A DNA stretch of 49,588 nucleotides from a virus. Where the stretch lies: IMG/VR virus record IMGVR_UViG_3300008267_000074, positions 1 through 49,588 of that record. One strand, written 5' to 3'. The notes beneath the pieces are model-generated. The model saw nothing but the letters and a program-made list of their open reading frames with translations, did not search any database and had not been told where the DNA came from. The number at the start of each line of letters is the position of its first letter. Positions within the stretch are counted from its first letter, which is position 1. The position numbers were made by a program, and so were the translations under genes. Positions 679-47,215 of this stretch are shown one piece after another.

Positions 679-939
679 TTATTTTCCTTCTTCAATGCCA
701 TATTCAGCTTTAATGGCCTTTAAATTTTTTAAAAAATCTGGACTGATGCCATGTAATTTTACTTTTCTATTTAATATATCTTTAACTAATAGCAAATCAG
801 CCTTTTGTTTTTTTAATTTTTTTATAACTTCTTCTTTATTTTCAAAACCTTCATTAGCTTCTTCACGAATCCGTTTAAGATTATTGCGGCAAATCATTAA
901 CCAATTAGTCACTTGCAGGAAAGAGAACTTATACTTCAT
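679..939 (-). CDS. Small basic helical protein, function unknown
   Basis: I do not recognise this 86-residue protein. It is Lys/Glu-rich and predicted helical, with a charged stretch around residues 20-60 (FENKEEVIKKLKKQKADLLL) that could form a coiled coil. The start overlaps the end of the preceding 67-residue gene by 11 bases and has an AAAGGA about ten bases upstream, so translational coupling is likely. It lies between two fibre-type genes, so it could be a fibre assembly chaperone comparable in position to small T4 fibre chaperones; that is inference from context only. There are no cysteine pairs, membrane segments or catalytic motifs. Confidence 0.6.
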   Translation of the reverse strand: MKYKFSFLQVTNWLMICRNNLKRIREEANEGFENKEEVIKKLKKQKADLLLVKDILNRKVKLHGISPDFLKNLKAIKAEYGIEEGK

Positions 940-1132
940 CTGGTAATTCCTTTTCTTGTTCTATCAATTCTATAATCTTATCGTATTTTTCTGCCATTTT
1001 ATCTATTATTTCTTCAAACTCAATTTTTCTGCTTAATAATGATACTTCTTTACGAAAATCTCCTGTATGCGGCAATATTTCGCGCATTATTTTATCAAAA
1101 TCCTTGATAAGATAGGTTATTTTGCGTTTCAT
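929..1132 (-). CDS. Small acidic coiled-coil protein, function unknown (start uncertain)
   Basis: This 67-residue, strongly helical protein has a heptad-like pattern in residues 33-62 (rich in E, K, I and L). It overlaps the next gene by 11 bases. The start is ambiguous. The ATG at 1130-1132 has an AGGA directly abutting it, which is too close to act as an SD. The next in-frame ATG (1085-1087, giving about 52 residues) has AAGGA 13 bases upstream. A copy of the AT-rich box seen before two fibre genes lies at 1134-1149, so a transcript starting there would favour the shorter form. Function is unknown; a fibre assembly or chaperone role is possible from position. Confidence 0.5.
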   Translation of the reverse strand: MKRKITYLIKDFDKIMREILPHTGDFRKEVSLLSRKIEFEEIIDKMAEKYDKIIELIEQEKELPDEV

Positions 1133-1133
1133 T

Positions 1134-1149
1134 CCTAATAAATAGTTTT
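1134..1149 (-). promoter_or_regulatory. Degenerate copy of the 16-bp upstream box
   Basis: On the minus strand this reads AAAACTATTTATTAGG, matching 13 of 16 positions of the box AAAACTAATTATTATA found exactly at 4284-4299 and 6242-6257. It follows the terminator at 1153-1184 and sits directly before the first possible start of the 67-residue gene. It could be a promoter for the 67/86/224-residue genes. AT-rich DNA makes a chance match quite possible. Confidence 0.3.
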
Positions 1150-1152
1150 ATT

Positions 1153-1184
1153 AAAAAGAAAGGGTGGCAAATCTTCTGCCACCC
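1153..1184 (-). terminator. Intrinsic terminator after the 1000-residue fibre gene
   Basis: The arms GGGTGGCA (1162-1169) and TGCCACCC (1177-1184) form a perfect 8-bp stem with a 7-base loop. On the minus strand the stem is followed by TTTCTTTTT. It begins 27 bases after the stop of the 1000-residue gene. The same stem sequence recurs after the 563-residue gene at 4426-4445. Confidence 0.85.
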
Positions 1185-1211: not shown

Positions 1212-4200
1212 TTATATTACCATTGTCCAAGCAGTACCGTTATGGAAATATAGATTAGTTCCTGATACTGCCATCATACCAACAGTACCAGCTGGTAATG
1301 GATTTTGAGCAGTTAACTTTATAACAGATGTAACATTCACCGATCCGGTAACAGTCAAAGAGCCGCTAGGAACAGTAACATTGTTGTTACTATCGGCAGT
1401 TAATTTAATACGTCCTTGACCATCGCTAATTATAACATTGTTATCAGTATTATTTATTGAAGAACCATTATTACCTCCAATAATAACGTTGTAGCTACCT
1501 GTAATTAAGCTAGTGCCCGCATTGTATCCCATAGCTACGTTAGAAGTACCATATACAAAATATTGCAACGCTCCATAACCAACTGCTGTATTTCTATGAT
1601 ACATTTTATTAGTGCTTAATGCAAAAGAACCTATTGCTACGTTTCTGTGAGCAGATGTTCCTGCGTTAGCGGCATAATATCCTATAGAAACGTTATCAGA
1701 CCCACCAGTTCCTTCACCATAATTTCCAGCAGCAGCATTAGAAAATGTATTAGAACCTATAGAAACGTTTTGTATACCATAGTCTCCAACTGCCGTCCAG
1801 AATGTAACTGCTTTTCCAATGCCAACGTTATCATAACCACCTGTAGCTCCACCATAAACTTTTGATCCTTGTAAGGCTATGAAAATATTATTTTGAGAAG
1901 AATTTCCATTAGAAATGTTTATACCATGAATACTTGCAGACTGAGAAGATGATAAATTATTTGCTCCGATAGCTGTTCTTAACGATGAAGTAAAGTTAGA
2001 GCTTGATACATAAGAAGATAAAACACTGCTACCCACAAAAGCATTAGAAGAGGTAATAACAGTTCCATCACCAAATGCGATACCAGTACTAGCTGTAATA
2101 CTAAACATGTTTCTTATACTACCACTAAGATATATGTTATAAATTTCAGTACTCGGGTTATTAGAGTTAGTATAAGCAGTTAATAAATTAGATAACACAA
2201 TAGAACCGTGTTTGCCGTTTACATGACCGCCATTAGAACCAATAATAATAGTATTATCGGTTTGCGAACTCAAACCATAACCGGCAGACATGCCGATTGC
2301 TATATTATTTGCTCCTCTTGGTAATTGTCCAAGAGCTAAAGATCCAATAGCCGTATTGTTATCTACACCAGATCCTCCTGTAAGTGCATTTAGGGCGTAA
2401 CTACCAAATGCCGCATTATATATACCAGCAACATTTTTATTTAATGCATACGATCCAACTGCGGTACACTGTGCAGCGCCGGGAGAAGAACCATAAACAG
2501 TACCACCGGATAATGCTGCATAACCAATCGCTACTATACCAGCACCATAAACATTTCTTCCAGTTTGACCACCGATAAATAACGTATCTGCTAATTCGTG
2601 ATGCCCTCTACCAATTCTTGCACCATATACTTGCATATCTTTACTAGAAGTAACGTTTCCAACAAATGAAACAGAAGAAGCATTTAATTGTGCAAATGAT
2701 GCTGAGACTTCTTGACCACTTACCGATGAACCGGTATAAGAGATGACACCATTTGATATTTGAAGATTATTACCGGCTCTAAATTGATTTCTTACATCAT
2801 TTGTAAATGTAGCAATAGCAGAACCAGTAGCAACATAAGACGCAGTAACTTTTGTTAATGAAGAACCATCACCTATATATTTTGAAGCTGATACATAATT
2901 ATTAGTTCTATCAATTTTAAATATATATGGACCAAAATCTAAAGTTTCGTTACTTATGTCTATTCTATTGGTACGCATTGTAATATAGCTACTAGCATCA
3001 CTTAAATCACCTAAAATTGCGCCTTTGGCGGCAATCAAGGTACCGCCATATAATTCTAATTGTCCTGAATCTATACGTATACCATTATCAAAATACGCTT
3101 TATCATCAAAAGTTTTACTACCATTAAAATTCTGATTACCGATACTTACGAATCCACATTCTGTACTGGAGGCAGAACGAAATGTTAAAGTACCAGTTTG
3201 ATTACTGACAGATAAAGTAAAAGGGTTACTAGTTCCAACACCGGGATCTCTTGTTAAAAGTAATGCTTTTGTTGGTGAATATTCTATTTGTAAACTAGCG
3301 GTAGCAATTGTAAATAAATTATTTGAAGATATGACACCATTAGAAATACTAATATTACTACCGGCTGTAAATTGCCCTCTAACTTCATTAGTGAAATCTT
3401 GTTTATTAACAAATGAACTAGAAACACTACTTGTTGTAGCATATGGAGTTAAAGCGCTGGTAATTTGTTGAGCGGTTATACCTCCAGTAGAGCTAATGGT
3501 ATTACCAGAAATAGTGACGTTATCTCCAGCAACTAATTGAGAGCTTATATCACTTAACTTAGCATAAGATGCTAAGGCGCTAGTTAATTCTGAATTAGTA
3601 ATACCCGGAGTATTATATGAAGCGCTTGTGTTAATTACATCTAATAATGTTTCATTTACGGCTATAAATCTAAATGGATTTCCAGCCGCACTTGGTGCAT
3701 CTATGTCAGCATAAAGATTTCCACCGCTAACAAATAAATGAATGCTAGCCATATCATTTTTATAAACACCATCATTGTTTGAATCAATTAATAAGTCTAC
3801 AGTAATATCTTTTAAATTATCTGACGCAAAATAATCAGATCCAGATGTTGCTAATTGTGTTAAATTAAGTCTAGTTAAACCATATGGCCCTAATGTTCCA
3901 AAATGTCTAAAACGAACAGCTTCATATGCATTTCTAATAATTGCGGCTTTTGTTTCAATAGATTGATCTATGGTGCGGATAGCAAGTTCCGCATTATACA
4001 TATTATCTGCTGTTAGAGGAACATTATTCAATGGTTGCGATGCAGAAAGCATCAAATTACCACTTACAATAACTTCGTTACCTGCCACGTGGAATAATAC
4101 TGTTCCATCATCTAAAACTTTTTTAATATATGTGTTAGAGCCACTTAAAATGATACTTGAATCATTTTTGGCTTCGACTGTACCTAGAATTTTAATATTT

Positions 4201-4214
4201 CTTGGGTCTGCCAT
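1212..4214 (-). CDS. Large tail-fibre/adhesin with YadA-head-like repeats
   Basis: This is a 1000-residue fibre-type protein rich in Ser, Asn, Gly and Thr. Residues 137-192 hold the beta module shared with the 224- and 563-residue proteins (DITVDLLID, then YKNDMASIHLFVSG, then DIDAP, then FRFIAVNE). Two blocks of short repeats, roughly residues 530-660 and 765-920, follow the pattern N-N/V-x-AIG-x-x-AL (NNTAIGSLAL, NVAIGSFAL, NVAMGYNAG), like the left-handed beta-roll head repeats of trimeric YadA-type adhesins. The C-terminus (GMMAVSGTNLYFHNGTAW) is a common fibre end motif. The start has AAGGAG ten bases upstream, preceded by a small hairpin, a T-run hairpin and a 16-bp box. It is transcribed before an intrinsic terminator, perhaps monocistronically. 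Likely a trimeric receptor-binding fibre. Confidence 0.8.
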   Translation of the reverse strand: MADPRNIKILGTVEAKNDSSIILSGSNTYIKKVLDDGTVLFHVAGNEVIVSGNLMLSASQPLNNVPLTADNMYNAELAIRTIDQSIETKAAIIRNAYEAVRFRHFGTLGPYGLTRLNLTQLATSGSDYFASDNLKDITVDLLIDSNNDGVYKNDMASIHLFVSGGNLYADIDAPSAAGNPFRFIAVNETLLDVINTSASYNTPGITNSELTSALASYAKLSDISSQLVAGDNVTISGNTISSTGGITAQQITSALTPYATTSSVSSSFVNKQDFTNEVRGQFTAGSNISISNGVISSNNLFTIATASLQIEYSPTKALLLTRDPGVGTSNPFTLSVSNQTGTLTFRSASSTECGFVSIGNQNFNGSKTFDDKAYFDNGIRIDSGQLELYGGTLIAAKGAILGDLSDASSYITMRTNRIDISNETLDFGPYIFKIDRTNNYVSASKYIGDGSSLTKVTASYVATGSAIATFTNDVRNQFRAGNNLQISNGVISYTGSSVSGQEVSASFAQLNASSVSFVGNVTSSKDMQVYGARIGRGHHELADTLFIGGQTGRNVYGAGIVAIGYAALSGGTVYGSSPGAAQCTAVGSYALNKNVAGIYNAAFGSYALNALTGGSGVDNNTAIGSLALGQLPRGANNIAIGMSAGYGLSSQTDNTIIIGSNGGHVNGKHGSIVLSNLLTAYTNSNNPSTEIYNIYLSGSIRNMFSITASTGIAFGDGTVITSSNAFVGSSVLSSYVSSSNFTSSLRTAIGANNLSSSQSASIHGINISNGNSSQNNIFIALQGSKVYGGATGGYDNVGIGKAVTFWTAVGDYGIQNVSIGSNTFSNAAAGNYGEGTGGSDNVSIGYYAANAGTSAHRNVAIGSFALSTNKMYHRNTAVGYGALQYFVYGTSNVAMGYNAGTSLITGSYNVIIGGNNGSSINNTDNNVIISDGQGRIKLTADSNNNVTVPSGSLTVTGSVNVTSVIKLTAQNPLPAGTVGMMAVSGTNLYFHNGTAWTMVI

Positions 4215-4230
4215 TTTAATAAATCTCCTT

Positions 4231-4243
4231 GCCTTTTAAGGGC
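4231..4243 (-). promoter_or_regulatory. Mini-hairpin fused to the SD of the 1000-residue fibre gene
   Basis: The minus strand reads GCCCTTAAAAGGC and is followed immediately by AAGGAG and the start codon. Pairing is weak (3 bp plus a possible 2 bp), but the position and the GGCAAGGA junction match the stronger GCCC-TGAT-GGGC hairpin before the 563-residue gene. Confidence 0.4.
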
Positions 4244-4249
4244 AAATAT

Positions 4250-4279
4250 AAAAAAAGCGCCAAGATAACCCATTGGCGC
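4250..4279 (-). terminator. T-run hairpin upstream of the 1000-residue fibre gene (terminator or leader)
   Basis: The arms GCGCCAA and TTGGCGC (4273-4279 with 4257-4263) form a 7-bp stem with a 9-base loop, followed on the minus strand by seven T. The preceding gene already has a terminator at 4420-4445, so this second one is not needed for it. It may instead be a 5' leader hairpin or an attenuator for the fibre gene, whose start is only 35 bases further on. Confidence 0.65.
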
Positions 4280-4283
4280 AAGA

Positions 4284-4299
4284 TATAATAATTAGTTTT
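4284..4299 (-). promoter_or_regulatory. 16-bp box AAAACTAATTATTATA, copy 1
   Basis: This is identical over 16 bases to 6242-6257. It lies 70 bases upstream of the start codon of the 1000-residue fibre, four bases before a GC-rich hairpin. The other copy lies 75 bases upstream of the 563-residue fibre in the same arrangement. A phage promoter core is the simplest reading. It is not the T4 late consensus TATAAATA. Confidence 0.5.
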
Positions 4300-4410: not shown

Positions 4411-4419
4411 TAAACAAAT

Positions 4420-4445
4420 AAAAAAGGGTGGCATTTCTGCCACCC
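4420..4445 (-). terminator. Intrinsic terminator after the 563-residue fibre gene
   Basis: The arms GGGTGGCA (4426-4433) and TGCCACCC (4438-4445) form a perfect 8-bp stem with a 4-base loop, followed on the minus strand by six T. It begins 30 bases after the stop codon. Both arms are identical in sequence to the terminator at 1153-1184. Confidence 0.9.
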
Positions 4446-4475
4446 TCTCCTAACCTAATTTACTATTAGATTATA

Positions 4476-6167
4476 TTATACTAAGCCGCCATCTTTTTCG
4501 TTAACTGCAATTAAGCGGAATGCTGCGGTTGGAGTTGCTGGAGCATCGATTTGTACTTTCAATGCTGCGCCGTCTACATACATCTTGATAGCTACCAAGT
4601 CGTTTGTATAACCGGTGTTATCGGCATCTACCATTACGTCCAATGCGATATTTGCAATTTGTGCAACAGCGAATTGTGCGCCACCTTCTGTGGTTAAGTT
4701 TACAATTACTTGACCGCTGGTTAATGCGCCAGTAACTACGCAACGTAATGCATCGTACTTGTTGCTTAGATCGGTAGATTGTGTAGCAAATTTTGTGTCT
4801 AATGCGTGGATAGCATCGCTTACGTCAAATTTGCCATCTACTACTGGGGTGGTAATATTTGAGAATGCAGAGCCAGAAAGTTTCATTGCACCATCGAATG
4901 AAGCTTCGCCAGCTACATCTAAGCCAATGTCAGATACCCACTTACCTGCTGCGTTATCGTAAACAAAGCTTACGCCTGCGCCGTCTACTTCAATACCTGC
5001 ACCATCTGCTGCTGCGCCGTTAGCTGCGCCCTTAGCAATAGTTACAAGTTTATCGGTTACTTCAAGGTTTACGCTGTTAACGTATGTTAATTGACCGTTA
5101 ACTGTTAAGTTACCGCCAACTGTTACGTCACCAGAGAATGAACCGCTCTTTGCACCAACGATGTCTTGACCACCCATCTTAAGTTCGCCAGACATTGTGC
5201 GTGTACCATCAAGTTTCAAGAAGGTTAAGTCTTCTGCTGCACGGGCTGCTGCTTCTGCTGCTACAGCGCCGCTTGTGTAAGCTTGCAATGAGCTAGAAAG
5301 AGCATTGTCTTGTGCATCAACATATGTTTTAATAGCGCCAGAAAGAGCAGTTGTTGCTGCGTCTTGTGCTGCGTTAGCTGCATCAACATATGAAACGATG
5401 GCACCAGAAACGGTAGTGATTCTAGCATCTAATACGCCTTCAGCTGCTAATGCACGGGTACGTTCTGCTGCTACGGCACCAGAGAAAGAGGCAGACAATG
5501 CTGGTAATGAGCTACTTACCAATGTGTCAAATGCTGCTTCATTGAAGTCTAAACGTGCATCGAATGCGCCTGATAATGCCAAATCTTGTGCGTCAACGTA
5601 AGCCTTAATAGAGCTAGAATAATTTGTAAATTCTAAATCTTGTGCTGCGTTTTCAGCATCAATATAAGCTACTAAAGCACCAGATAATGCAGCAGTAGCA
5701 AGATCTTGTGCATCATTTTCTGCATCTACATAAGCTACAATAGAACTTGAAACACTGTTTAAGTTATTTTGTAATTGTGTATCGCCAGCGTTTACATAAG
5801 CAATTACTGCGCCAGATAATGCTGAAGTTGCTGCATCTTGTGCAGAATTACCAGCATCAACATAAGACTTCATGCTGCTAGATAATGCTGAATCGGCTGC
5901 AATACGTGCCAAAGCTTCTGCACTTAAAGCGCTCATAATAGCGCCAGAAAGAGCAGATGTTGCTGCATCTTGTGCAGAATTACCAGCATCAACATAAGAC
6001 TTGATAGCGCCAGATACGTCTGTTAATTGACCGTAGTTTACACCATCGGTGCTTACTGTACCAGCTGCTACGTTAGTTACTTTTTGACTGTTTACGTCTA
6101 AACCTTGTTCAAATTTTGCAGCTTGTGATGCTGTCAAAACTGTTAAAATCTTTAATGGATTAGCCAT
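4476..6167 (-). CDS. Ala-rich repeat fibre/stalk protein with shared C-terminal beta module
   Basis: This 563-residue protein has residues 50-320 built from degenerate repeats of the type SGAIKSYVDAGNSAQDAATS, a pattern typical of trimeric coiled-coil stalks. One pair is encoded by an exact 44-base DNA repeat with a 132-base (44-codon) period. After the stalk comes a region common in marine phage structural proteins (VGGNLTVNGQLTYVNS, then DKLVTIAKG, then DGAGIEVDG). Residues 507-563 are the module also found in the 224- and 1000-residue fibres. The gene is clearly richer in G+C than its neighbours: two 60-base lines I counted have 24 and 28 G+C, against 13-20 in two neighbouring lines. With its own upstream cassette and a strong terminator, it looks like a highly expressed single-gene transcript. 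The start has AAGGA 11-12 bases upstream. Confidence 0.75.
   Translation of the reverse strand: MANPLKILTVLTASQAAKFEQGLDVNSQKVTNVAAGTVSTDGVNYGQLTDVSGAIKSYVDAGNSAQDAATSALSGAIMSALSAEALARIAADSALSSSMKSYVDAGNSAQDAATSALSGAVIAYVNAGDTQLQNNLNSVSSSIVAYVDAENDAQDLATAALSGALVAYIDAENAAQDLEFTNYSSSIKAYVDAQDLALSGAFDARLDFNEAAFDTLVSSSLPALSASFSGAVAAERTRALAAEGVLDARITTVSGAIVSYVDAANAAQDAATTALSGAIKTYVDAQDNALSSSLQAYTSGAVAAEAAARAAEDLTFLKLDGTRTMSGELKMGGQDIVGAKSGSFSGDVTVGGNLTVNGQLTYVNSVNLEVTDKLVTIAKGAANGAAADGAGIEVDGAGVSFVYDNAAGKWVSDIGLDVAGEASFDGAMKLSGSAFSNITTPVVDGKFDVSDAIHALDTKFATQSTDLSNKYDALRCVVTGALTSGQVIVNLTTEGGAQFAVAQIANIALDVMVDADNTGYTNDLVAIKMYVDGAALKVQIDAPATPTAAFRLIAVNEKDGGLV
5827..6002 (-). repeat. 44-base exact direct repeat inside the stalk region
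   Basis: Positions 5827-5870 and 5959-6002 are identical and separated by a 132-base period. They encode the repeated stalk unit containing AGNSAQDAATSALSGA. Looser copies continue towards 5280. The in-frame period (44 codons) permits lengthening or shortening of the stalk by recombination. Confidence 0.85.
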
Positions 6168-6183
6168 TGTAATACTTTTCCTT

Positions 6184-6195
6184 GCCCATCAGGGC
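6184..6195 (-). promoter_or_regulatory. Mini-hairpin fused to the SD of the 563-residue fibre gene
   Basis: The minus strand reads GCCC-TGAT-GGGC (4-bp stem, 4-base loop) followed directly by AAGGA and the start codon. The same GGCAAGGA junction occurs before the 1000-residue gene. It may keep the SD exposed or protect the mRNA. Confidence 0.45.
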
Positions 6196-6199
6196 GGAT

Positions 6200-6240
6200 A
6201 AAAAAAGAGCATTTAAACTTAACTACAGTCTAAATGCGCT
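6200..6240 (-). terminator. T-run hairpin between the 361- and 563-residue genes (terminator or leader)
   Basis: GCATTTA (minus strand 6237-6231) pairs with TAAATGC (6215-6209), with one mismatch and two further pairs outside; the loop is about 15 bases. Seven T follow on the minus strand. It could terminate transcription from the 361-residue gene, whose stop is about 70 bases upstream, or be the leader hairpin of the 563-residue gene. Its arms differ in sequence from the hairpin at 4250-4279, but placement and T-run are the same. Confidence 0.65.
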
Positions 6241-6241
6241 G

Positions 6242-6257
6242 TATAATAATTAGTTTT
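6242..6257 (-). promoter_or_regulatory. 16-bp box AAAACTAATTATTATA, copy 2
   Basis: This is an exact copy of 4284-4299, placed one base before the hairpin and 75 bases upstream of the 563-residue fibre start. A promoter role is inferred from the matching position before two fibre genes. Confidence 0.5.
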
Positions 6258-6307
6258 ATTTTTAGGAAAAGTATTATTCTGTATTTTTGCTTAGTTAAAA
6301 ACCGAAA

Positions 6308-23643: not shown

Positions 23644-26600
23644 TTAATCGCCTCTATTTACTTTAATTTTGGTTCTTTTATTTGTAACCTCGTTTTGTCT
23701 CACACTTTTTACATCATTTCTTGGATTAAATTTTTCTAATCCTGCTTCTAGTTTTGTCTTACTTACTTTTGGTAAATTAGGAAGATTATTTACCAATTCT
23801 GCTATAGGATTTGTATTATCAATTTCTAATTTAGCCTCAACATTAACTAGTTCTACAAGAGAAAAGAAATCATACGGCCAATTATAAGAATATTGTGGTA
23901 TGTTATTGGCATTATTAGAATTTCCGAAGTCGAATTTAAAACGAGTATCGTCGCGGGTGTCCTCTGTTAATTTATAATAGTTTATTTCACCACGTTGCTT
24001 GACTTTGAACACTTTAAATTTAACTTCAGAAGGAAGTTTTTTGCCGTGGAATAGTTCTTTAACGCCAAAGCCATGAGATATGTTTATATCTTGCTTTTCA
24101 GCCTTATAGGATGCTTTTGGCATTAATCCTTGCCAAATATCAGACAAATCTTCTGTATCTAAAACAGTGCCAAATTCTGCTACATACATGACAAATGGGT
24201 TAATATCTTTATTTCTTATCCAATCTAAATGTGTTGGAATAGAATATTTTGTCATAGACTTAACTAATTTTACAATACTGTTATTCTGATCTACTTCGGA
24301 AGAATTTACTCGTCTTTTTATTTCTTCAAAAGTAACGAGCGAATCTCTACTGAAAGATAGACCAATAACTTCTTTTAAAATATCTCTATCAATAGCAAAA
24401 TAATATGGACCGTCACCACGTTGGAAACTGTTAGTAATCCCATTTTCGCCTAATAATTCTGGTATTGTTGCTGCTTTTGTGTTATCGATATTTAAATCAT
24501 GATTTTTATCATAAGTATATGGAATTACTACTACGCCTTCAGATAATACCTTATTGTCGTCTAATAAACCAATAGTTAATTTTTGATCTTTCTTAAAACC
24601 ACACAATTGAGCTAAAGAACCAGTTTTTGAAGAAATCATTTGACGCTTAGAGCCAATAAATGGTTCAGAAATATACATTTTTATTCCATTACCTTCTTTT
24701 ACCGGTTCTCCATAAGTTGTCCATAGACCTTTAAACAGATTTGAATATACACCATGTGTAAACTGATAAGTTTCATCTTGGAATCCACCTATAAAATTTA
24801 AACCTAAATTATTTATCTTATCAACATTAGCAAAATTAATAGCCGGTGTTTCAAATTTTGTTTGAATAACCCAAGAATTGTTTTCGTTTGTTGGTTTTTC
24901 AACAGCTGCCAATTTAGAATTAGCCGCATCAAACAAAGGATTATTATTTTCTGTTTTGAATAACAGGTTTATACTAGAAGATAACGTCATCAAAGAACTG
25001 TATGCAGGAGAATTGCTATAATTATCTGTATATGGTGCATTGAAGCTAGAAGAAATGATATTAGATCTTTCAGCAAATAGTGCTTTTGCGTCATCGTTGA
25101 TAAAAGTTATTGTTGCATTTCTTTGTATTTCTTCTAGAGAATATTGTCTAGTATCTTCAGCTTTAAATTCTATTCTAGCAACTGATTTTCCATAGTAATA
25201 TGGTGGAACATAAGGTGCATAAGCGGGAGTATCAACTTGTTTAAAGAAGAAATTATACCAACTAGAACCTGTTAATGCAGAAGCAGAAGCGTAGTTCCAA
25301 TATCTAACTGGTGGGCCATATAGAGAATCAGGAGAATATACTAATAAATCATTACTTCCTGATTGTAATAATTTAGCAGTTTCATAAAATGGATCTGCTA
25401 TATACTCTTTAAATTTTTTGTCCCTTTCTAATACAACATCCATATAATATGTGACGCCTGCAATCGCACTTTGAAATTTAGTTTCTGGTGCAGATACTAA
25501 CTTAGATAACTTATTTTTTAAGAAGAAGCTTGGAACTTCTGCTAAGAAATTATGCATTGCTAATTTATAGTCTGCATTATTAAATACAAAGTTTTTTAAA
25601 GAACCAGATAGCGACATATTATAAGACGGATAACGTAAATATTGTCTATCATCGCCATATACAACATCAGTAGAATAATATGTTGGGTCTAAATAATATA
25701 GATTGCTACTAGTTGTTTTTAATTCATCTGGTATGGTTGTATCAAATTCTAATAAACTTTCAAATTCAAATCGATAATTAGGCGACTTGTCAATAAACAA
25801 AGTAGCAGTATGATTTGTATTAACAGAACCAGAAGATTTGTAAAAATCTGGCAAAATGCTAGAGCTGAATGCAGCGCTGCTTGTTATAAAAGCAGGCCAA
25901 TCAACCGCAATAGAAGATTTAATGCTGTTTAAAAGTACGCCGGGGGCGAACAACGGTTGCATTAAAGTCAATAATTGCTGATCTATAGGAGTACCATTGG
26001 AATTATTAAAATCAGCGGTTGTATATACATCATCATAAATTGATGTAAATGTTTGCTTTAAATCAATAAATGAATTAATAAATTTAGAACTTAATTCTTT
26101 TACTCTTTCGCTTGGATAAAAACCTTTATATGGTAATAATTTTTTAATACCAGATATCTTAAATGATATTTTTTTATTATTTGCATCTTCGTCTAATACG
26201 AATGTATTTAATGGTGAAGATTTATTAATTTCACTATTAATATCAGTAAAATCATTTTGTATAGCTAAACCATCCACTGATAGATAACTTGTTGTTAAGA
26301 AAGAATTAAAATTACCATTTTTTTCTTTAATATAATATTCTGCGAAATCACTTATTTTATATTCTGGTACAAGAGAATATGTTTTGCTATTTGGTTTTAA
26401 ATCTCTTAAATATTCTTCATAAGAATTAAAGAATGGTTTTTTAGAAATTATACCGGTTTCTGTTTTAATATCACCAGCCACTTTATCCGTATCGTATATA
26501 TAACCTTCGTTTAATAAATAAACACATTCATTAATTGTTTTATTGAAAGTAATAGTTTTTTGTGTTTTGTCGTCATTTAATTTATATAAATATAAACCTT

Positions 26601-29600
26601 TGTTATTTGAACCTGTAGAAGACGGTAAATGATTGTTAAATATTAATTGAGGTCTTGGTAACAAGCGAGGTTTATTATATAAATAAGCTTCAAAAGGTGT
26701 TTGATTATCAGAAGTTTGAATAGTTCTATTATTTATTTGTTTTGTAAACCATCCTGCATAATATACAGCATCCCCAGAGCCGCTTTTTACAATACTAGAA
26801 ACCGGCTCGTTTAAATCGGAAGTATAGGATATAAATTTATTTTCGCTATCAGAATATAAGAATGCGTTATAAGTTTTTTCATTAGAAATGTAAGTTTGAA
26901 GAAATGTATTAGCACCGACATTCACATTGCCATCATAAACACTCCCATTAAAATCAACAATATAGGTATTAACATTTTTATAAGAACCTTCTTTCCAATA
27001 TGATAGTGTAGAGGAACTGACAAGGACGGCTATACTGCCAAGAGGTTTAGAAGCGTTATTATTATAAGGATCGGCAACGGTTTTATAGATTGAACCAACC
27101 ATTTGGACTACATCATTGTTTATATTTTTAATTTTTGTTACCCAAGCAGGATTGCCGTCTTCCAATAAAAGACCGCCTTCAGGTGCTGCTTTCCAAGTAT
27201 TAGTAGAGTAATTATAAATTCCAACAGCGGCGCTAGATGTAGAGTTAGAGGCTACTTTACTAAAATTTCCACCAACAACTATAGCATTAGAGCCAAATTG
27301 TGCTATAGTAGAAACAATACCATCAGTTCCTTGAGTTGTCGAAGATGCACCGAGAGCACTATATACACTTCCATTCCATTTTGCTAAAGTAGAACAAGAT
27401 AAATAAGTACTTCCATTCTTTGCGTGAGTAAATAGACCACCAACATATATACCACTAGAATTAGTGTGAATTGTTGTTCCAATACCAACTTTATAAGTTG
27501 GTCCTTGTTGAATAAAAATACCATCACCAACTTTTTGCAAGGTATTGCTAGTTTTATTCCATTTAGCAATACCATTTAATGTTAATGAAGAATCAGAAGT
27601 CTTATCAAAAAAGCCAATAAAATATATACCATCACTGCCACTAATAATTTGTCTTACTCCATAGAAAAGATAATTATATTGAGGTACTGATGGAAGAGAA
27701 ACCATATTATTAGATGCAGTAACACCTAATCCTAATCTATTCCACTGATTACCATCCCAGTATGCTATTCTGTCTAATTGATTGCCATATTCGTCTTGCG
27801 TAAAAAAGCCGCCAGCATATAAATAATTTGAATTATTATCATAATAAAGCGCAGTGACGGGGCCATTTAATTTTGCAATTCCATCATCGCTCCAAGTTTG
27901 TGTGACAGGATCCCATTTAGCAATATAATTGATCTTATCGTTATTAATATCTGGATCTAAGATAAAATATCTATGTTCTGGTAAATTATATGGCGATAAA
28001 ATACCTTTAACCGTATCGCCATAGCTCATAGTCATATTAAAATTAGCTAATATACTTCCACCGCCAACATTAATTTGATCTAATAGATAATTATTAAGAT
28101 CTATCTGTAAAACATCTAAAGGATCTGGATTTGGTACCCAATCATTTCCCAATGTTCCTGTATATACATCAGAAGAACCTGTTAAATTATCAAGAGCATA
28201 AATAGAAGAATTTATATTTCCACTAATTCTATGAAGAACAGGATAATCATTCATTACAGAACCAGTAAAGTCTTTTAATGCAGCGTAAGAACTGGTGGTG
28301 TAATCAAATAAATCTTTTACATCGGCCATTCTTTTACGAACAAGATAGTTTTCGTGCCAGTAGCTTCTTAATTTAGTGATGCTTTCACTGGAACCAAAAT
28401 CGTCATAGCTTGGTTTAGTTCTTACTTCTTTTAGACCTGTATTTTCTTTTGCAGGATAAATTTGTGTAGTATATTCTGCCTTTAAAAGTTCCGGCTTTGG
28501 ATCATATAAACCAGATTTTAATTCCATTAAAGCTTCATGTGCTTGTTGATTTGTCTTAGAAGAAATACCAGTAGCTATAGCTAAATCAATATTATTAAAT
28601 CTTTCTTTATTATTATCATAAGAGCTAATAACTTCAACAGATGATTCCGAACCAGTAACCAATAATGTATGTTTCATTGGTTTGTTAAATGTAACAGGTG
28701 ATTGTTTATAACTCTTTGATGTTTGTGCGCGTTTTTCCATATATGGAATTTTAAAACCACGCAAATCTTTAATTTTTTGTGATGGTTTGTCTAATACAAG
28801 CGTTAAGTTATTTTTTATAGAATTTTGTACAATCTTATTGCCATCTTTTCTGATTTGCTTCCAACTTGGGTGTTTATAAGCACCATTCATATTCAGCAAA
28901 AGCTTATTTAAATCATTATCATAATTACTACCGGTACTTACCGTAAATGTCGTTAAATCAACATTCTTAGAGAAATGGGTATTAAGACCAACAAAATCAA
29001 GAGGTTTAGAAGAAGATACAGAGCCGGATACAAATTGGAAAGAGTTTGTATTAAAAGTATTTAAATTTTCATATCCGCCTACATAGCCACTAAATTTTGG
29101 TCTTGTAGATAGTGAAGAAGAAATCCAAGCGTATCCTAAATCACTTTGTGGAATTTGATGTTGAACAAAGTTATTATCATATCTTGCTACAGAATTTGTA
29201 CTAGTGGCGTTAACTGGTCTATATTTTGGATTCTCATTAACTTTGTGTATTGATGGATTAACACTATCTAAACTTTTAGATTCCGCAGACCAAACGTTTA
29301 ATTGTTTACGTACACGTATATTTCTAGCATTTAAATCATTATAAGGAGAATACTCTTCAGCAGCGTTGTCTAAAGCACCGCGAGATAATGTTTCAGCACC
29401 ACCGGGAGCACTAAATCTTTCAACAAATATGTTCTTATAATCATTTCTTATAGGTAATTCACGACTAGAAAAACCATTTCCAGAATCAGATATATTAGTA
29501 ACAATATTTCCGGTTAAATCAACAAATGATTTATTGTTTCCCGTTCTTCCAGCACTTTGATAATATTCGTAATTTTGATAAAAGTTCTCTTTTTTCTTGA

Positions 29601-32600
29601 TTGGTTGAATTATTTGTCCTGAACCTGTTACAGTTTCATCGGCAAATTTAAATTGTGAAGTAACTTTATTGTTGTATACGGTAATTGGACTAATGCTATC
29701 TTCAATAATAGTCATACTTTTGACATCAAAGCGATAAAGTTGATTAAAAAGCCTTATTTTATCTTTCATGCCTTCATAATCTTGATTAGAATCAATGCTA
29801 TAAAGTGTTGGAACCTTATTTAAATTTGTTGAATTAATAACTTGACGTATAATTTCTCTATCAATATCGTTTTGAGGCTCTAAAGGTGTGTTTACGAGAT
29901 TATTATCTCTATTAACGCGCTGTTTAAGCCATAATGTACCCGCTGGTGAAGCAGGGGCTTTTTGTTTTTCATATTCAAAACTTAAACCAGATCCTACAGA
30001 AGTTACCATTTCGCCATTAAATCTAAGGCTTGGCATCTTATTTTGATATTTATTACGTTCTAATAAGTGACTTTCTACCATGTTTCTTACTTTATTAGAA
30101 ATATTAGCAGAAGCAGGTATTAATTGACTAATCATCAATGAAATTGATGAATCAATCCACTTATAAAATTCTAAAAACTTTTCAAAATCAGGAGTATTTT
30201 GTACTTTTTCAAAGAACATTCTTTGAACGTGATTAAGGGCCTTATAATCGTGTTGATATTTTTCAATCGGATCGCCAATCAAGTTATTAAAATCTTTTAT
30301 TGTTGCAAACCAATTCAATATTTCATCATTTATGACTTGCGCCATGCTTTTTTCTATTGATAGATAAAAATTAACTGGTCTAGAAGTCTTAGTACGTGTT
30401 ACATCGTCTGTAATTGGCGTTTGAATTAAATCAGAACCTGCCATAATTTCTGGCGGTATTTGTTTTCCTGAATAAACATATTCCCTATTAACAACTTGAT
30501 CATCGTTAGGATAAAAATTATTACCTAAACCTGTATGACGAATTCTTGTTATATCTTGTAATAATGGATAAAAATTATCAGTAATTTCTGCTAAAGAACC
30601 AGAAGATGCATCTTGAACGATAAATTGTCCAAAACCATCAGAGGAAGAGACATTAAAGAAATCCCAGTTTAAAGCAAGAGTATCTATTCTTGTAAAATTA
30701 GCATAAGAACCAGTAGTAATAACTTCCATAGGCCAATTTGGATATTGACGACCAAAATTAGAAGCATCTATAGAATGTACTCTTAATTCATCGTTATTCA
30801 CATAATCTAACCAAACACGCAACGAAGACACTTTTACATCTGTTTTATCAAACAAATAATTCTCATTAAAGTTTTCATAATGAGCGCCAACATATAAACG
30901 TTTATTTGTATTTAATGCCACCTTTGCATCGGCGGCTGGTATTGCTGTTGATAAAACAAACTGATTTTCAACGCTATCTACCAAGGAATTAAAACCAATA
31001 AACTCTAAATCATAGTCTGTTATTTCGCTACCAAAAGCTGTATTTACATTTTGTAATTTTTTAGGCGATAATCTAACAGCAAAATTCCATTTTTGGTTAT
31101 CGTATGTATCATTATAAAAACTAGAAGTTAAAATTACATTTGTGTTATTTAGTCTTGCTTGGAGTTTAAAATAAACATCGGGACTTTCATAGTTTCTTTT
31201 TTCAGCATAAACTTGAAAATTAAATAAATCTTGATTGTAGATATCATCGCCCCAAGTTAAATCCACTTCATTAACTTTACAAGTATGTAATCCAAAAAGT
31301 GAAATTTCTGTAAAAACTGGAATATCGTAATTTGGATTATCGTATTCTACTTTTTTAGGAAATATAATTTCTGTTTGAATTGTTAATGGTACAAAATCTA
31401 ATTCATTACTGTTACTACCTTTAATATATCCGCGTGTATCAGAATCGCCGGAAATATTTTTTTGAAAAACATAACCATTATATCTATCGGCATTATTAAA
31501 ATCTATGTACTTTTTAGGTATAGAAACAGATTTATATTTTTCAGTAAATTCATATTGTGAATTAGAAGCATATAAATTGATCTTAATTAATTCATCATCT
31601 ACGCCAAAACATCTAATCAAATTACGTAATGACTTTTCAGTACCTTTTGATTTATAAATATATGCTAGATTGTTGTATATATTTTGATAAATAGCATTTT
31701 TAATATTATGTACTTTTTCTTCAAATTCGTCTGATTCATTGCGCGACAAGACATCTTCTAAAAAGGTTGTATTATTAAAAATTTCTATATTTTCAAAGCC
31801 ATACGAACTTAATAATTTATTAGTAAAAGGCTTTGGCTTTTCATTTTCTTTAATATATTCTGTATTTCTTAATGCAGGTAAATCTTTAATTTGTAAATGT
31901 AAAGTATCAAAATAGCTAGATATAATTTGCACTAAGTGTGATAAATCGTTAGATTCTAAACTTTCTGCTTCTTCTGTTATCCAAGAAGGAATAGAATTAT
32001 AAATATTAGCATTATTTTGTTTATCATGTTCAAAGCCAATTTCTGCGTATTGATCGACTATGCTCTTTACTAATGGATTACTAGAAAATAAAATCGGGTC
32101 TTTATTTTCAACTGTTTCTCCAAAATATTCATCTATGGCAGAAGAAGTGCTTTTTACATTTAAATCATAAGAAATAATTGTACCGTTTGAAACACGACCA
32201 GAATAATCAATGCAGATTGAATCAAGAGCATTAATTTCCTTATTATTAACGTATCCTTCATTAAATTTATAATATACACCTAAAGAAGTATTTGCATCAT
32301 CAGTGTTACTACCGCCAGCTACATTTGTAAACCAATAACGATAAATTTGCTTAGAATTTCTAGCTACTTTCCAGAATCTAAATTCATCATAAGAAGCATA
32401 GCTTGTTCCAAATCCATTCCAAAATTGTGTATTTTTTCCTTCTGAATCAGCTTGATAGCCGCCAATAGTGGCTAGAGTTCCAAGATTATTAGCTAATGTA
32501 ATTCCACCAGCTCCAATTATCTTATTTAAAGACTGTAATTCGCCATCTAAATAAAAACATATTTCTAAATCATTAATATCAAAATCGCTGTTTTTAAAGC

Positions 32601-33363
32601 TAAAAGCATAATGATGCCAATTGTTTCTATCAGAATTATGATTTAAGGCATATTTTACAACGCCATTTGTTCCAGAAACATAAGTTAATAAAAAAGAATT
32701 ACTAGAAGAATGTTCGATTGTTAATCTTGTATAATCTGAACTACCGCTTTCTTTTTGATTCCATAAATCAAATATGGCATGAATGTTATTGTAAGCAGGA
32801 TCAGAAATATCGGTATTTTCTTTATACCAAAATTCGACTGTATTACCAAATTCAGTAATTCCTAAATTAGATTCTCTGTTTTTTGAAACATCAAAGATAT
32901 TAGATTTTTCAAAATCACCCGTTGGAGAAGCATTTGGACCACCTTTTATTTTTATATATTGTGGTTTTGAACAATCTTTATATTCATAAGAACCTGTTGT
33001 TACGCCAAACACTGAACCGGATCCTAATGTAACATAACCAGTTGTTTTTGGATATATATGATCAAAAATATAAAGGTCTAATTGAGTGGCTTTATTACGC
33101 CATTGTTGTTGCTCTTTGCGTGAACCGTCATAAGGGTAATTTTGGTATATGTTAGATATTGCATCGACATAATATTTTTCAGCAGAGCCATATCTTGCAA
33201 AATTAGAAGCGCTAGAAAAATCAACATCAGGTAAAAACCTTTCTCTATCTACTGCTATTTCTTCTAGATAGCCTTCACTTTCTGCTTCTTTATATAATTG
33301 CTCTAATTGTTTATTAGCAACTATCTTTTCAGAAGTTTTACCAAATAAATCTTTTAATGACAT
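23644..33363 (-). CDS. Giant virion structural protein with LamG-like domain and embedded beta-propeller
   Basis: This is a single uninterrupted frame of 3239 residues. Residues about 165-350 form a LamG/concanavalin-like domain (NTVEFWYKENT, then NWHHYAFSFKNSD, then CFYLDGELQ, then YDEFRFWKVARNSKQIYRYW). Around residues 570-595 is KSKGTEKSLRNLIRCFGVDD, a marker I know from giant structural proteins of marine phages. Residues about 1805-2210 are repeats of I-A-K/Y-W-(D/N)-G-x-x-W followed by Y-x-G-G-x-F (IAYWDGNQWNRLG, YLYAGGFFTQ, LAKWNGSVYSALG), which indicate a beta-propeller. Residues about 2413-2490 contain FYPSERVKELSSKF and QPLFAPGVLLNSIKSSIAVD, also known from that family. The position just after gp25- and gp6-like wedge genes is that of T4 gp7/gp8, so it is likely a baseplate-periphery or fibre-platform protein. 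The SD is AGGG, ten bases upstream. Confidence 0.8.
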   Translation of the reverse strand: MSLKDLFGKTSEKIVANKQLEQLYKEAESEGYLEEIAVDRERFLPDVDFSSASNFARYGSAEKYYVDAISNIYQNYPYDGSRKEQQQWRNKATQLDLYIFDHIYPKTTGYVTLGSGSVFGVTTGSYEYKDCSKPQYIKIKGGPNASPTGDFEKSNIFDVSKNRESNLGITEFGNTVEFWYKENTDISDPAYNNIHAIFDLWNQKESGSSDYTRLTIEHSSSNSFLLTYVSGTNGVVKYALNHNSDRNNWHHYAFSFKNSDFDINDLEICFYLDGELQSLNKIIGAGGITLANNLGTLATIGGYQADSEGKNTQFWNGFGTSYASYDEFRFWKVARNSKQIYRYWFTNVAGGSNTDDANTSLGVYYKFNEGYVNNKEINALDSICIDYSGRVSNGTIISYDLNVKSTSSAIDEYFGETVENKDPILFSSNPLVKSIVDQYAEIGFEHDKQNNANIYNSIPSWITEEAESLESNDLSHLVQIISSYFDTLHLQIKDLPALRNTEYIKENEKPKPFTNKLLSSYGFENIEIFNNTTFLEDVLSRNESDEFEEKVHNIKNAIYQNIYNNLAYIYKSKGTEKSLRNLIRCFGVDDELIKINLYASNSQYEFTEKYKSVSIPKKYIDFNNADRYNGYVFQKNISGDSDTRGYIKGSNSNELDFVPLTIQTEIIFPKKVEYDNPNYDIPVFTEISLFGLHTCKVNEVDLTWGDDIYNQDLFNFQVYAEKRNYESPDVYFKLQARLNNTNVILTSSFYNDTYDNQKWNFAVRLSPKKLQNVNTAFGSEITDYDLEFIGFNSLVDSVENQFVLSTAIPAADAKVALNTNKRLYVGAHYENFNENYLFDKTDVKVSSLRVWLDYVNNDELRVHSIDASNFGRQYPNWPMEVITTGSYANFTRIDTLALNWDFFNVSSSDGFGQFIVQDASSGSLAEITDNFYPLLQDITRIRHTGLGNNFYPNDDQVVNREYVYSGKQIPPEIMAGSDLIQTPITDDVTRTKTSRPVNFYLSIEKSMAQVINDEILNWFATIKDFNNLIGDPIEKYQHDYKALNHVQRMFFEKVQNTPDFEKFLEFYKWIDSSISLMISQLIPASANISNKVRNMVESHLLERNKYQNKMPSLRFNGEMVTSVGSGLSFEYEKQKAPASPAGTLWLKQRVNRDNNLVNTPLEPQNDIDREIIRQVINSTNLNKVPTLYSIDSNQDYEGMKDKIRLFNQLYRFDVKSMTIIEDSISPITVYNNKVTSQFKFADETVTGSGQIIQPIKKKENFYQNYEYYQSAGRTGNNKSFVDLTGNIVTNISDSGNGFSSRELPIRNDYKNIFVERFSAPGGAETLSRGALDNAAEEYSPYNDLNARNIRVRKQLNVWSAESKSLDSVNPSIHKVNENPKYRPVNATSTNSVARYDNNFVQHQIPQSDLGYAWISSSLSTRPKFSGYVGGYENLNTFNTNSFQFVSGSVSSSKPLDFVGLNTHFSKNVDLTTFTVSTGSNYDNDLNKLLLNMNGAYKHPSWKQIRKDGNKIVQNSIKNNLTLVLDKPSQKIKDLRGFKIPYMEKRAQTSKSYKQSPVTFNKPMKHTLLVTGSESSVEVISSYDNNKERFNNIDLAIATGISSKTNQQAHEALMELKSGLYDPKPELLKAEYTTQIYPAKENTGLKEVRTKPSYDDFGSSESITKLRSYWHENYLVRKRMADVKDLFDYTTSSYAALKDFTGSVMNDYPVLHRISGNINSSIYALDNLTGSSDVYTGTLGNDWVPNPDPLDVLQIDLNNYLLDQINVGGGSILANFNMTMSYGDTVKGILSPYNLPEHRYFILDPDINNDKINYIAKWDPVTQTWSDDGIAKLNGPVTALYYDNNSNYLYAGGFFTQDEYGNQLDRIAYWDGNQWNRLGLGVTASNNMVSLPSVPQYNYLFYGVRQIISGSDGIYFIGFFDKTSDSSLTLNGIAKWNKTSNTLQKVGDGIFIQQGPTYKVGIGTTIHTNSSGIYVGGLFTHAKNGSTYLSCSTLAKWNGSVYSALGASSTTQGTDGIVSTIAQFGSNAIVVGGNFSKVASNSTSSAAVGIYNYSTNTWKAAPEGGLLLEDGNPAWVTKIKNINNDVVQMVGSIYKTVADPYNNNASKPLGSIAVLVSSSTLSYWKEGSYKNVNTYIVDFNGSVYDGNVNVGANTFLQTYISNEKTYNAFLYSDSENKFISYTSDLNEPVSSIVKSGSGDAVYYAGWFTKQINNRTIQTSDNQTPFEAYLYNKPRLLPRPQLIFNNHLPSSTGSNNKGLYLYKLNDDKTQKTITFNKTINECVYLLNEGYIYDTDKVAGDIKTETGIISKKPFFNSYEEYLRDLKPNSKTYSLVPEYKISDFAEYYIKEKNGNFNSFLTTSYLSVDGLAIQNDFTDINSEINKSSPLNTFVLDEDANNKKISFKISGIKKLLPYKGFYPSERVKELSSKFINSFIDLKQTFTSIYDDVYTTADFNNSNGTPIDQQLLTLMQPLFAPGVLLNSIKSSIAVDWPAFITSSAAFSSSILPDFYKSSGSVNTNHTATLFIDKSPNYRFEFESLLEFDTTIPDELKTTSSNLYYLDPTYYSTDVVYGDDRQYLRYPSYNMSLSGSLKNFVFNNADYKLAMHNFLAEVPSFFLKNKLSKLVSAPETKFQSAIAGVTYYMDVVLERDKKFKEYIADPFYETAKLLQSGSNDLLVYSPDSLYGPPVRYWNYASASALTGSSWYNFFFKQVDTPAYAPYVPPYYYGKSVARIEFKAEDTRQYSLEEIQRNATITFINDDAKALFAERSNIISSSFNAPYTDNYSNSPAYSSLMTLSSSINLLFKTENNNPLFDAANSKLAAVEKPTNENNSWVIQTKFETPAINFANVDKINNLGLNFIGGFQDETYQFTHGVYSNLFKGLWTTYGEPVKEGNGIKMYISEPFIGSKRQMISSKTGSLAQLCGFKKDQKLTIGLLDDNKVLSEGVVVIPYTYDKNHDLNIDNTKAATIPELLGENGITNSFQRGDGPYYFAIDRDILKEVIGLSFSRDSLVTFEEIKRRVNSSEVDQNNSIVKLVKSMTKYSIPTHLDWIRNKDINPFVMYVAEFGTVLDTEDLSDIWQGLMPKASYKAEKQDINISHGFGVKELFHGKKLPSEVKFKVFKVKQRGEINYYKLTEDTRDDTRFKFDFGNSNNANNIPQYSYNWPYDFFSLVELVNVEAKLEIDNTNPIAELVNNLPNLPKVSKTKLEAGLEKFNPRNDVKSVRQNEVTNKRTKIKVNRGD

Positions 33364-46032: not shown

Positions 46033-46332
46033 TTATTCTCCACGAATTAAATCAAATAATTCGTCTTTTTCTTTTTTTGACATTCCTTCTTTAGAGCCTT
46101 CTTGACGTTGAATGATGGCTGCAACTTTTACTAATTGTTCATTGGAGCGTTGAAGAGTCTCTAAATACATGGCTGCTATTTCACCAAAGTTTTTGTGAGT
46201 ATATTTATCTTCAGCGTGTTTATTCATATGATCTACAAGATCTAACAATAGTTTACTTGTTACAGCACGATCATTTTGTATATTATGTGTTGCTTCCGCT
46301 ATGTATTCTTCTAAAGTTTTATTAGCACTCAT
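46033..46332 (-). CDS. Small helical protein, conserved context, function unknown
   Basis: This 99-residue protein is strongly helical. The core KLLLDLVDHMNKHAEDKYTH is followed by MYLETLQRSNEQLVKVAAII. I recall similar small proteins beside the late sigma and structural genes of marine T4-like phages, without an assigned function. Its start overlaps the end of the sigma-factor gene by 11 bases, and its stop is three bases before the peptidase-hub gene, so the three are translated together. Oligomeric helical accessory protein, possibly a chaperone, adaptor or small-terminase-like protein; none of these is proven. Confidence 0.65.
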   Translation of the reverse strand: MSANKTLEEYIAEATHNIQNDRAVTSKLLLDLVDHMNKHAEDKYTHKNFGEIAAMYLETLQRSNEQLVKVAAIIQRQEGSKEGMSKKEKDELFDLIRGE

Positions 46333-47215
46333 CTCTGTAAACCCTCGATTTTATATGAGAAATTTGTCCATTTTGCCATTTTTTACGAAAATCATCATAT
46401 TTATAGCGAAATTTCTTAAGATTATTTACAACCTGCTTTGTATTTAATCCAGTAATTTCTCGCATATACAGATAAATAGCTTTTTTATTAAAAATTTCTA
46501 TATTTTCACTTTCTTTAAAAAGCATTATTATCGCTTTATAGACTTTTATCTCATTTTCTTTGAGGCGTTTATCAAACCAACTATGCATTTCCGCTTCTAA
46601 AGCAGTCCAAAATTCTTCTTTTTCTCTAGAATGTAAATAAGAATCTTCATATACTAATTCTTCTTCTTGCGGTGAATCTTTAATATCTTCAATATAAAGT
46701 TCTTTTTTATTATTATTTTTCTTAACTTTATGTATAAACCAATTTTTAGTAATGACTGAAAAATATGAAAAAGCTTTTGAGCCGCGTGAAGTGTCATATT
46801 TATCTAATATTGTAGTTAAAAACGTTTTACATTCGTTTTTTAAATCATCAATATTAGGTAAGTTGTTAAATTTATAAGTATAAACTATCTTTTCAACCAT
46901 TTCATTAAAGGCTGGTTGGATAAGTTTTATATATAATTCGGTTTTACGATTGTTGTCAAGAATTGATGCATATTCTAAGATTGCATCTTCGTGAACTTTA
47001 GTGAAATATTGATTCTTAGCATCTACAACTTTTGGAGCTATCACCATAGGTTTTGGTGGCTCCTGTAGTAAACGCTTTTTATAAGCCCGTTTAGGAAAGT
47101 TAAGAGCTAATTCTACCGATTGTTGCGCTTCTTTTTGAAGACGCTTCTTTATCGGTTTTTTCAGCTTCTTTTTGGGCTTCGTTATTTTCTTGATTTTCTT
47201 GTATTTCTTCATCAT
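46322..47215 (-). CDS. Late sigma factor, gp55-like (start uncertain)
   Basis: This protein has up to 297 residues. Residues about 80-170 look like sigma region 2 of T4 gp55-type late sigma factors: LYIKLIQPAFNEMVEKIV, then DDLKNECKTFLTTILDKYDT, then KAFSYFSVITKNWFIHKVKK. The C-terminal half (KAIYLYMREITGLNTKQVVN, then NLKKFRYKYDDFR) looks like a helix-turn-helix-type end and makes it longer than T4 gp55 (185 residues). The first 30 residues are almost all Lys and overlap the preceding gene by 116 bases. An in-frame ATG at 47047 (M57, 241 residues) has AGGAG 12 bases upstream and would reduce but not delete the basic tail. In T4, gp55 directs host polymerase to late promoters, so it probably drives the structural block seen here. 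Confidence 0.8.
   Translation of the reverse strand: MMKKYKKIKKITKPKKKLKKPIKKRLQKEAQQSVELALNFPKRAYKKRLLQEPPKPMVIAPKVVDAKNQYFTKVHEDAILEYASILDNNRKTELYIKLIQPAFNEMVEKIVYTYKFNNLPNIDDLKNECKTFLTTILDKYDTSRGSKAFSYFSVITKNWFIHKVKKNNNKKELYIEDIKDSPQEEELVYEDSYLHSREKEEFWTALEAEMHSWFDKRLKENEIKVYKAIIMLFKESENIEIFNKKAIYLYMREITGLNTKQVVNNLKKFRYKYDDFRKKWQNGQISHIKSRVYRDEC

Follow-up and report, generated by a model that had tools for sequence, protein, structure and literature searches.

Genes and features of the fibre region

The window, as the whole stretch of DNA analysed here is called, is a piece of 49,588 bp from an uncultured virus, and its minus strand holds nearly all genes. Capsid and terminase proteins place the phage group among the distant relatives of T4; of the phages with names, Flavobacterium phage immuto and Microcystis phage Mel-JY01 come closest. 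Two genes encode products of 563 and 1000 residues (Table 1), which can reasonably be called fibres from the YadA_stalk domain of the former and the PHROG tail-spike match of the latter.

Both genes are preceded by the cassette described in the initial annotation, and all of its parts were located in the same order: a 16-bp box, a hairpin, seven T, a mini-hairpin and the Shine-Dalgarno (SD) sequence AAGGA. The exact box AAAACTAATTATTATA lies on the minus strand at 6257-6242 and 4299-4284, and the distances of 75 and 70 bases to the start codon match ATG at 6167 and 4214. Read on the minus strand, the leader of the 563-residue gene is AAAACTAATTATTATA-C-AGCGCATTTAGACTGTAGTTAAGTTTAAATGCTC-TTTTTTT-ATCC-GCCCTGATGGGC-AAGGA-AAAGTATTACA-ATG, and that of the 1000-residue gene is AAAACTAATTATTATA-TCTT-GCGCCAATGGGTTATCTTGGCGC-TTTTTTT-ATAT-TTGCCCTTAAAAGGCAA-GGAGATTTATTAAA-ATG. 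The hairpin arms are GCATTTA..TAAATGC in the first and GCGCCAA..TTGGCGC in the second, with exactly seven T after each.

Table 1. Coordinates of the features of the two fibre genes and of the candidate sigma factor in the window
Feature	Position	Strand	Remarks
563-aa fibre-like protein	4476..6167	-	YadA_stalk domain; ATG at 6167
1000-aa tail-spike-like protein	1212..4214	-	PHROG tail-spike family match; ATG at 4214
Late-promoter box (putative), 563-aa gene	6242..6257	-	core ACTAATTA at 6247-6254; orthologues also carry the box
First hairpin (predicted 5′-terminal), 563-aa leader	6206..6240	-	main stem 6209-6237; z -4.0
Seven-T run, 563-aa leader	6200..6206	-	sequence
Mini-hairpin GCCC-TGAT-GGGC, 563-aa leader	6184..6195	-	abuts SD
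Shine-Dalgarno AAGGA, 563-aa gene	6179..6183	-	sequence
AATACTTTTCCT, upstream of 563-aa box	6264..6275	-	perfect complement of SD region AGGAAAAGTATT (6171-6182)
Intrinsic terminator, 563-aa gene	4419..4452	-	terminator scan
Late-promoter box (putative), 1000-aa gene	4284..4299	-	core ACTAATTA at 4289-4296
First hairpin GCGCCAA/TTGGCGC, 1000-aa leader	4257..4279	-	z -2.9
Seven-T run, 1000-aa leader	4250..4256	-	sequence
Mini-hairpin TTGCC-CTTAAAA-GGCAA, 1000-aa leader	4229..4245	-	overlaps 5′ edge of SD
Shine-Dalgarno AAGGAG, 1000-aa gene	4225..4230	-	sequence
Intrinsic terminator, 1000-aa gene	1162..1184	-	terminator scan
Third box AAAACTATTTATTAGG	1134..1149	-	directly after terminator, directly before ATG of a 67-aa gene; without hairpin leader
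gp55-like late sigma factor, candidate box reader	46322..47215	-	PHROG 234

The third box, AAAACTATTTATTAGG, directly adjoins the start codon of a short, conserved gene (MKRKITYLIKDFD..; 929-1149, minus strand), and the same layout is found at its homologues in three related contigs (G001-G003), so that the late mRNA of this gene may be leaderless or nearly so. Elsewhere on the minus strand of the window, the virion-gene block contains two very long ORFs, one of 3239 aa and one of 2248 aa (23644-33363 and 37014-43760), and a 420-aa protein (44767-46029) has a C-terminal part that matches tape-measure and endolysin PHROGs.

Distribution of the box

The box AAAACTAATTATTATA occurs only at its two sites in the window, even with one mismatch allowed, and matches with three mismatches are at chance level (13 found, 12.6 expected). 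In addition, 60 16-mers recur in the window, mostly within the fibre gene's own repeats. Recurrence of a 16-mer is therefore weak evidence by itself, and the significance of the box rests on its position and on the relatives of the phage, which provide motif enrichment, leader conservation and hairpin z-scores.

Relatives of the 563-residue protein were collected from IMG/VR. Every orthologue sharing the N-terminus MANPLKILT, except L165, carries either the box itself or a sequence close to it 55-92 nt upstream of the start, and the box of the 563-residue gene is present in orthologues L122-L125, L131, L132, L151, L153 and L156. An exact-box search of IMG/VR gave AT-rich chance matches among the matches listed, the 21-bp pattern of box plus AGCG being specific, and a gapped pattern of box plus SD added mainly chance matches inside genes. 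Relatives sought with the 1000-residue protein and with a 361-residue protein were not found, nor were any found by a scan of genome contigs; megablast against phages and tblastn of an 857-residue protein gave no matches.

Counts of the motif in the window and G001-G003 (347 kb) revealed a strong strand preference. CTAWTTAT is present in intergenic regions 36 times in sense and 2 times in antisense orientation, with 1 and 4 occurrences of the reversed motif, and ACTATTTA was the top intergenic sense k-mer in a de novo ranking (30 sense, 3 antisense, 0.66 expected from coding). The typical position is just after a terminator or stop codon, ahead of head, tail-sheath and other late-type genes, and this distribution recurs before the same late genes in three further contigs (G004-G006). 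The sequence information is limited to an 8-9-mer, with no -35 conservation around the boxes, and a general sigma-70 promoter scan presented no excess over shuffles, which by that scan sets the box apart from ordinary sigma-70 promoters.

The promoter reading of the initial annotation is borne out: in seven related contigs and a named relative the motif is intergenic, specific to one strand and placed ahead of late genes, and the phage encodes a gp55-like sigma. The random scatter of the box inside genes, which that annotation had named as evidence against itself, was not seen. Its exact 16-mer did not hold as the recognition unit: the core is ACTAWTTA(T), and the flanking A/T letters vary. 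As judged from its distribution, this core is a strong case of a directional promoter motif.

Relation to the late promoters and late sigma factor of T4

The T4 late promoter, TATAAATA, is read by gp55 with gp33 and gp45. The window and G001-G003 do not follow this consensus, which presents 4 sense versus 17 antisense occurrences there. The reverse complement of TATAAATA, TATTTATA, is found in sense orientation a short way upstream of many late genes in immuto (L189, immuto 110411-160410) and likewise in Mel-JY01 (L188, 1-50000), where a similar motif is enriched. The intergenic regions of Mel-JY01 also contain a recurrent GC-rich element, with overlapping k-mers such as TCGGGCACAAGTGGAACCCGGGGGACTTC.

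The promoter of T4 late genes is an 8-bp TATA box located approximately one helical turn upstream of the start, with no -35 conservation (PMC2988020). The box described here shares with it the AT-rich, -10-only composition, the absence of a -35 element, the location ahead of late structural genes and the presence of a gp55-like gene in the genome, and it would also lie about one turn before the start, as extrapolated from T4 numbering. It differs in the core, which is ACTAWTTA(T) here and TATTTATA in immuto and Mel-JY01, versus TATAAATA in T4, and in a very divergent sigma. Late promoters of phage Aeh1 have a/gC at -13/-12, which is one step closer to ACTAWTTA than is the T4 TATAAATA.

PHROG 234, "late sigma transcription factor", was the only family matched by the candidate sigma, with hits for six of seven homologues (best E 1.8e-5) and an E of 0.0011 for the window protein. 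The gp55-like gene is conserved in G001-G005 and immuto. Against T4 gp55 alone the match was weak (hhalign E 0.094), and a PDB search with the sigma profile gave no sequence match. From the profile comparison, the product of 46322-47215 is probably a divergent gp55.

Structure of the fibre leaders

For the first hairpin, 10 leaders of the first-fibre type and 3 of the second-fibre type, taken from 10 phage records, were compared. In all 13 a stem begins 0-4 nt after the box, where the mRNA 5′ end is predicted from T4 spacing, and the arm sequences change: the stems include AGCGCATTTAGAC/GTTTAAATGCTC, AGCGGTTTTAATC/GGTTAAAACGCT, AGCGATTTTAATC/GGTTAAAATCGTT, AACGCTCTAAGGCAAA/TTTGTTTTAGGGCGTT, ACGCTGGTAATTTGC/GCAAGTTCTGGCGT, GTGATTTTG/CAAAATCAT, GCGCCAA/TTGGCGC, GAGGTCTA/TAGACTTC, and similar ones. 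Dinucleotide shuffles gave z-scores from -2.4 to -8.0 in 12 of the 13 leaders and -1.1, which is not significant, in the remaining one (G1_B). Arms paired with their own partner reached a mean of -11.7 kcal/mol versus -3.9 for swapped arms, with none of 20000 permutations as good; this test is biased toward own arms, which were chosen by folding, and the dinucleotide shuffles are the fairer control. The z-scores and the arm pairing agree with the earlier proposal that structure, and not sequence, is kept, and the comparison of leaders supports this reading of the first hairpin.

Among the remaining late leaders with a length of 50 nt or more, no comparable hairpin was found in the first four contigs (z -2.4 or higher) or in G004-G006 (z -0.9 or higher). 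Four phages with the same fibre N-terminus (L158, L160, L162 and L167) have the box and the mini-hairpin with no big hairpin, which is thus dispensable in this subgroup. An Rfam search of the window gave 0 matches above the gathering score.

The mini-hairpin abutting the SD is nearly exclusive to fibre genes, being present in 17/17 fibre leaders vs 6/174 other SD-bearing genes. Its stems vary (GCCC/GGGC, GCTC/GAGC, GGTC/GACC, TTGCC/GGCAA), and it is kept in the four leaders without the big hairpin. Two further arrangements were observed. At 84363 (minus strand) of G006, the L156 contig, a fibre-like gene (MSNIFNNIKVLTDLE..) has a box, an 86-nt leader and an SD-abutting mini-hairpin, and no 5′ hairpin. 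In the tail-sheath leaders of G002 (98287-98346; L141) and G003 (64362-64423; L146), a CTCC-CAAA-GGAG hairpin that contains the SD itself follows the late-promoter box.

Proposed function of the cassette and alternative explanations

We propose that each fibre gene has its own late promoter followed by a 5′-terminal leader that stabilises the mRNA and loads ribosomes, and we consider this interpretation fairly probable. The promoter would be a -10-only box with the core ACTAWTTA(T), probably read by the gp55-like sigma of the phage on the host RNA polymerase, and the fibre genes would be expressed late. When the core ACTAWTTA is set at T4 positions -13 to -6, +1 falls on the base right after the 16-bp box; by this analogy transcription may start some 6 nt beyond the core, where the box ends or immediately past it. 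A stem-loop would then occupy the very start of the mRNA (predicted +1 to +5); it most likely hides the 5′ end from 5′-end-dependent decay and keeps the following stretch single-stranded. The U-rich spacer would serve as a landing strip for the ribosome (S1/standby), and the mini-hairpin may keep the SD open and near the start codon, so that both would present the SD.

Stem-loops at the 5′ terminus stabilise mRNAs in the E. coli ompA and papA leaders, with protection against RppH and RNase E. The fibre leaders resemble them in a stem-loop predicted at no more than 4 nt from the mRNA 5′ end, with single-stranded RNA and then the SD behind it. They differ in belonging to a class of phage late genes, in the free replacement of the stem sequence and in the additional SD-abutting mini-hairpin, and for them stabilisation is a prediction. 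In E. coli, structures at the 5′ end hinder RppH and may make an mRNA more stable, with a like action in Bacillus (PMC3997798). The suggestion of the initial annotation that the leader stabilises or controls the fibre mRNAs is plausible.

The hairpin followed by T7 resembles an intrinsic terminator, and it could be a terminator or promoter-proximal attenuator that blocks upstream read-through or aborts fibre transcripts until late antitermination. Six or seven T follow the hairpin in 10/13 leaders, a terminator scanner lists the hairpin of the 563-residue gene as terminator-like, and that leader has no other terminator in the stretch that leads from the upstream stop codon to the box. Unlike known terminators and attenuators, however, the element stands just downstream of its own promoter, where it would stop the fibre transcript itself, and some relatives have lost the T-run but not the stem: L131 and L153 have a perfect or near-perfect stem with no T-run, and in L151 the T-run is only short. 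The missing or short U-run in three leaders that keep the hairpin disfavours termination as the main role. So does the location after the promoter, together with real terminators that are stronger and separate: the leader stems are AT-rich, with loops of 4-11 nt and -11 to -13 kcal/mol in the window, versus -15 to -18 for the terminators of the group. The earlier remark that the hairpin is not needed as a terminator holds for the 1000-residue gene, since the strong terminator of the 563-residue gene (4452-4419) lies 140 bases before the second hairpin. We regard a terminator or attenuator as rather unlikely. The leaders of T4 gene e and I-TevI keep read-through RNA silent but permit translation of late RNA (PMC3014915), and the late promoter of the 563-residue gene is similarly located between an upstream complementary arm and the ribosome-binding site (RBS). 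Read-through RNA would pair AATACTTTTCCT (6275-6264) with the SD (6182-6171) and stay silent, and RNA from the late promoter, without the upstream arm, would be translated. The 12-nt complementarity is perfect in the window (p 0.002 vs shuffles), and the predicted openness of the SD is 0.18 in read-through RNA vs 0.45 in late RNA. Unlike the T4 cases, the pairing is weak in G1_A and L125 and not significant in the other orthologues or the 1000-residue gene. With clear significance only in the 563-residue leader of this phage, RBS sequestration was rejected as a general mechanism; the pairing may be lineage-specific or due to chance. Sequestration is an unlikely explanation, and it could be combined with the stabilising, ribosome-loading leader.

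Phage proteins are also known to act on leaders, as T4 gp32, gp43 and RegA do, and a structured leader specific to one functional gene class would suit an operator through which such a protein autoregulates fibre synthesis. The stem sequence, the loop sequence and the loop length nevertheless differ between the two leaders of one phage and among relatives, which leaves little for a sequence-specific RNA binder, and an operator is thus very improbable. Least credible of all, with hardly any weight, is that the cassette is a mere homology patch for the swapping of fibre genes by recombination: the same box and architecture stand ahead of different fibre genes, whose N-termini share short motifs, but the cassettes are of low identity outside the box, yet keep their pairing, and the box is also found ahead of non-fibre genes.

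Significance for T4-like phages

The promoter and the 5′ stem-loop stabiliser are of known kinds, and the new part is the variant box with the fibre-specific double-hairpin leader, which was not found in Rfam or in the literature searched. The chances are about even that these leaders form an undescribed class of cis-acting RNA that marks the fibre genes of a distant T4-like clade. Such a leader would combine a freely rewritten 5′-terminal stem-loop with a U-rich spacer and a mini-hairpin that abuts the SD, and a divergent gp55 would drive its transcription from a variant of the T4-type late promoter, with the sequence ACTAWTTAT or, in immuto and Mel-JY01, TATTTATA.

One branch of T4-like phages thereby gains a promoter motif for its late genes, for which the literature searched yielded none; in pelagimyophages, a published late-promoter search was reported as unsuccessful (PMC7029224). 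The leaders suggest that fibre mRNAs, whose production has to be late and matched to that of other tail parts, have a structured 5′ end of their own. Since fibre and non-fibre leaders are so strongly separated, what 5′ structure does in the late mRNA of phages can be tested directly. ACTAWTTA(T) also helps to locate fibre genes and late operons on phage contigs from metagenomes.
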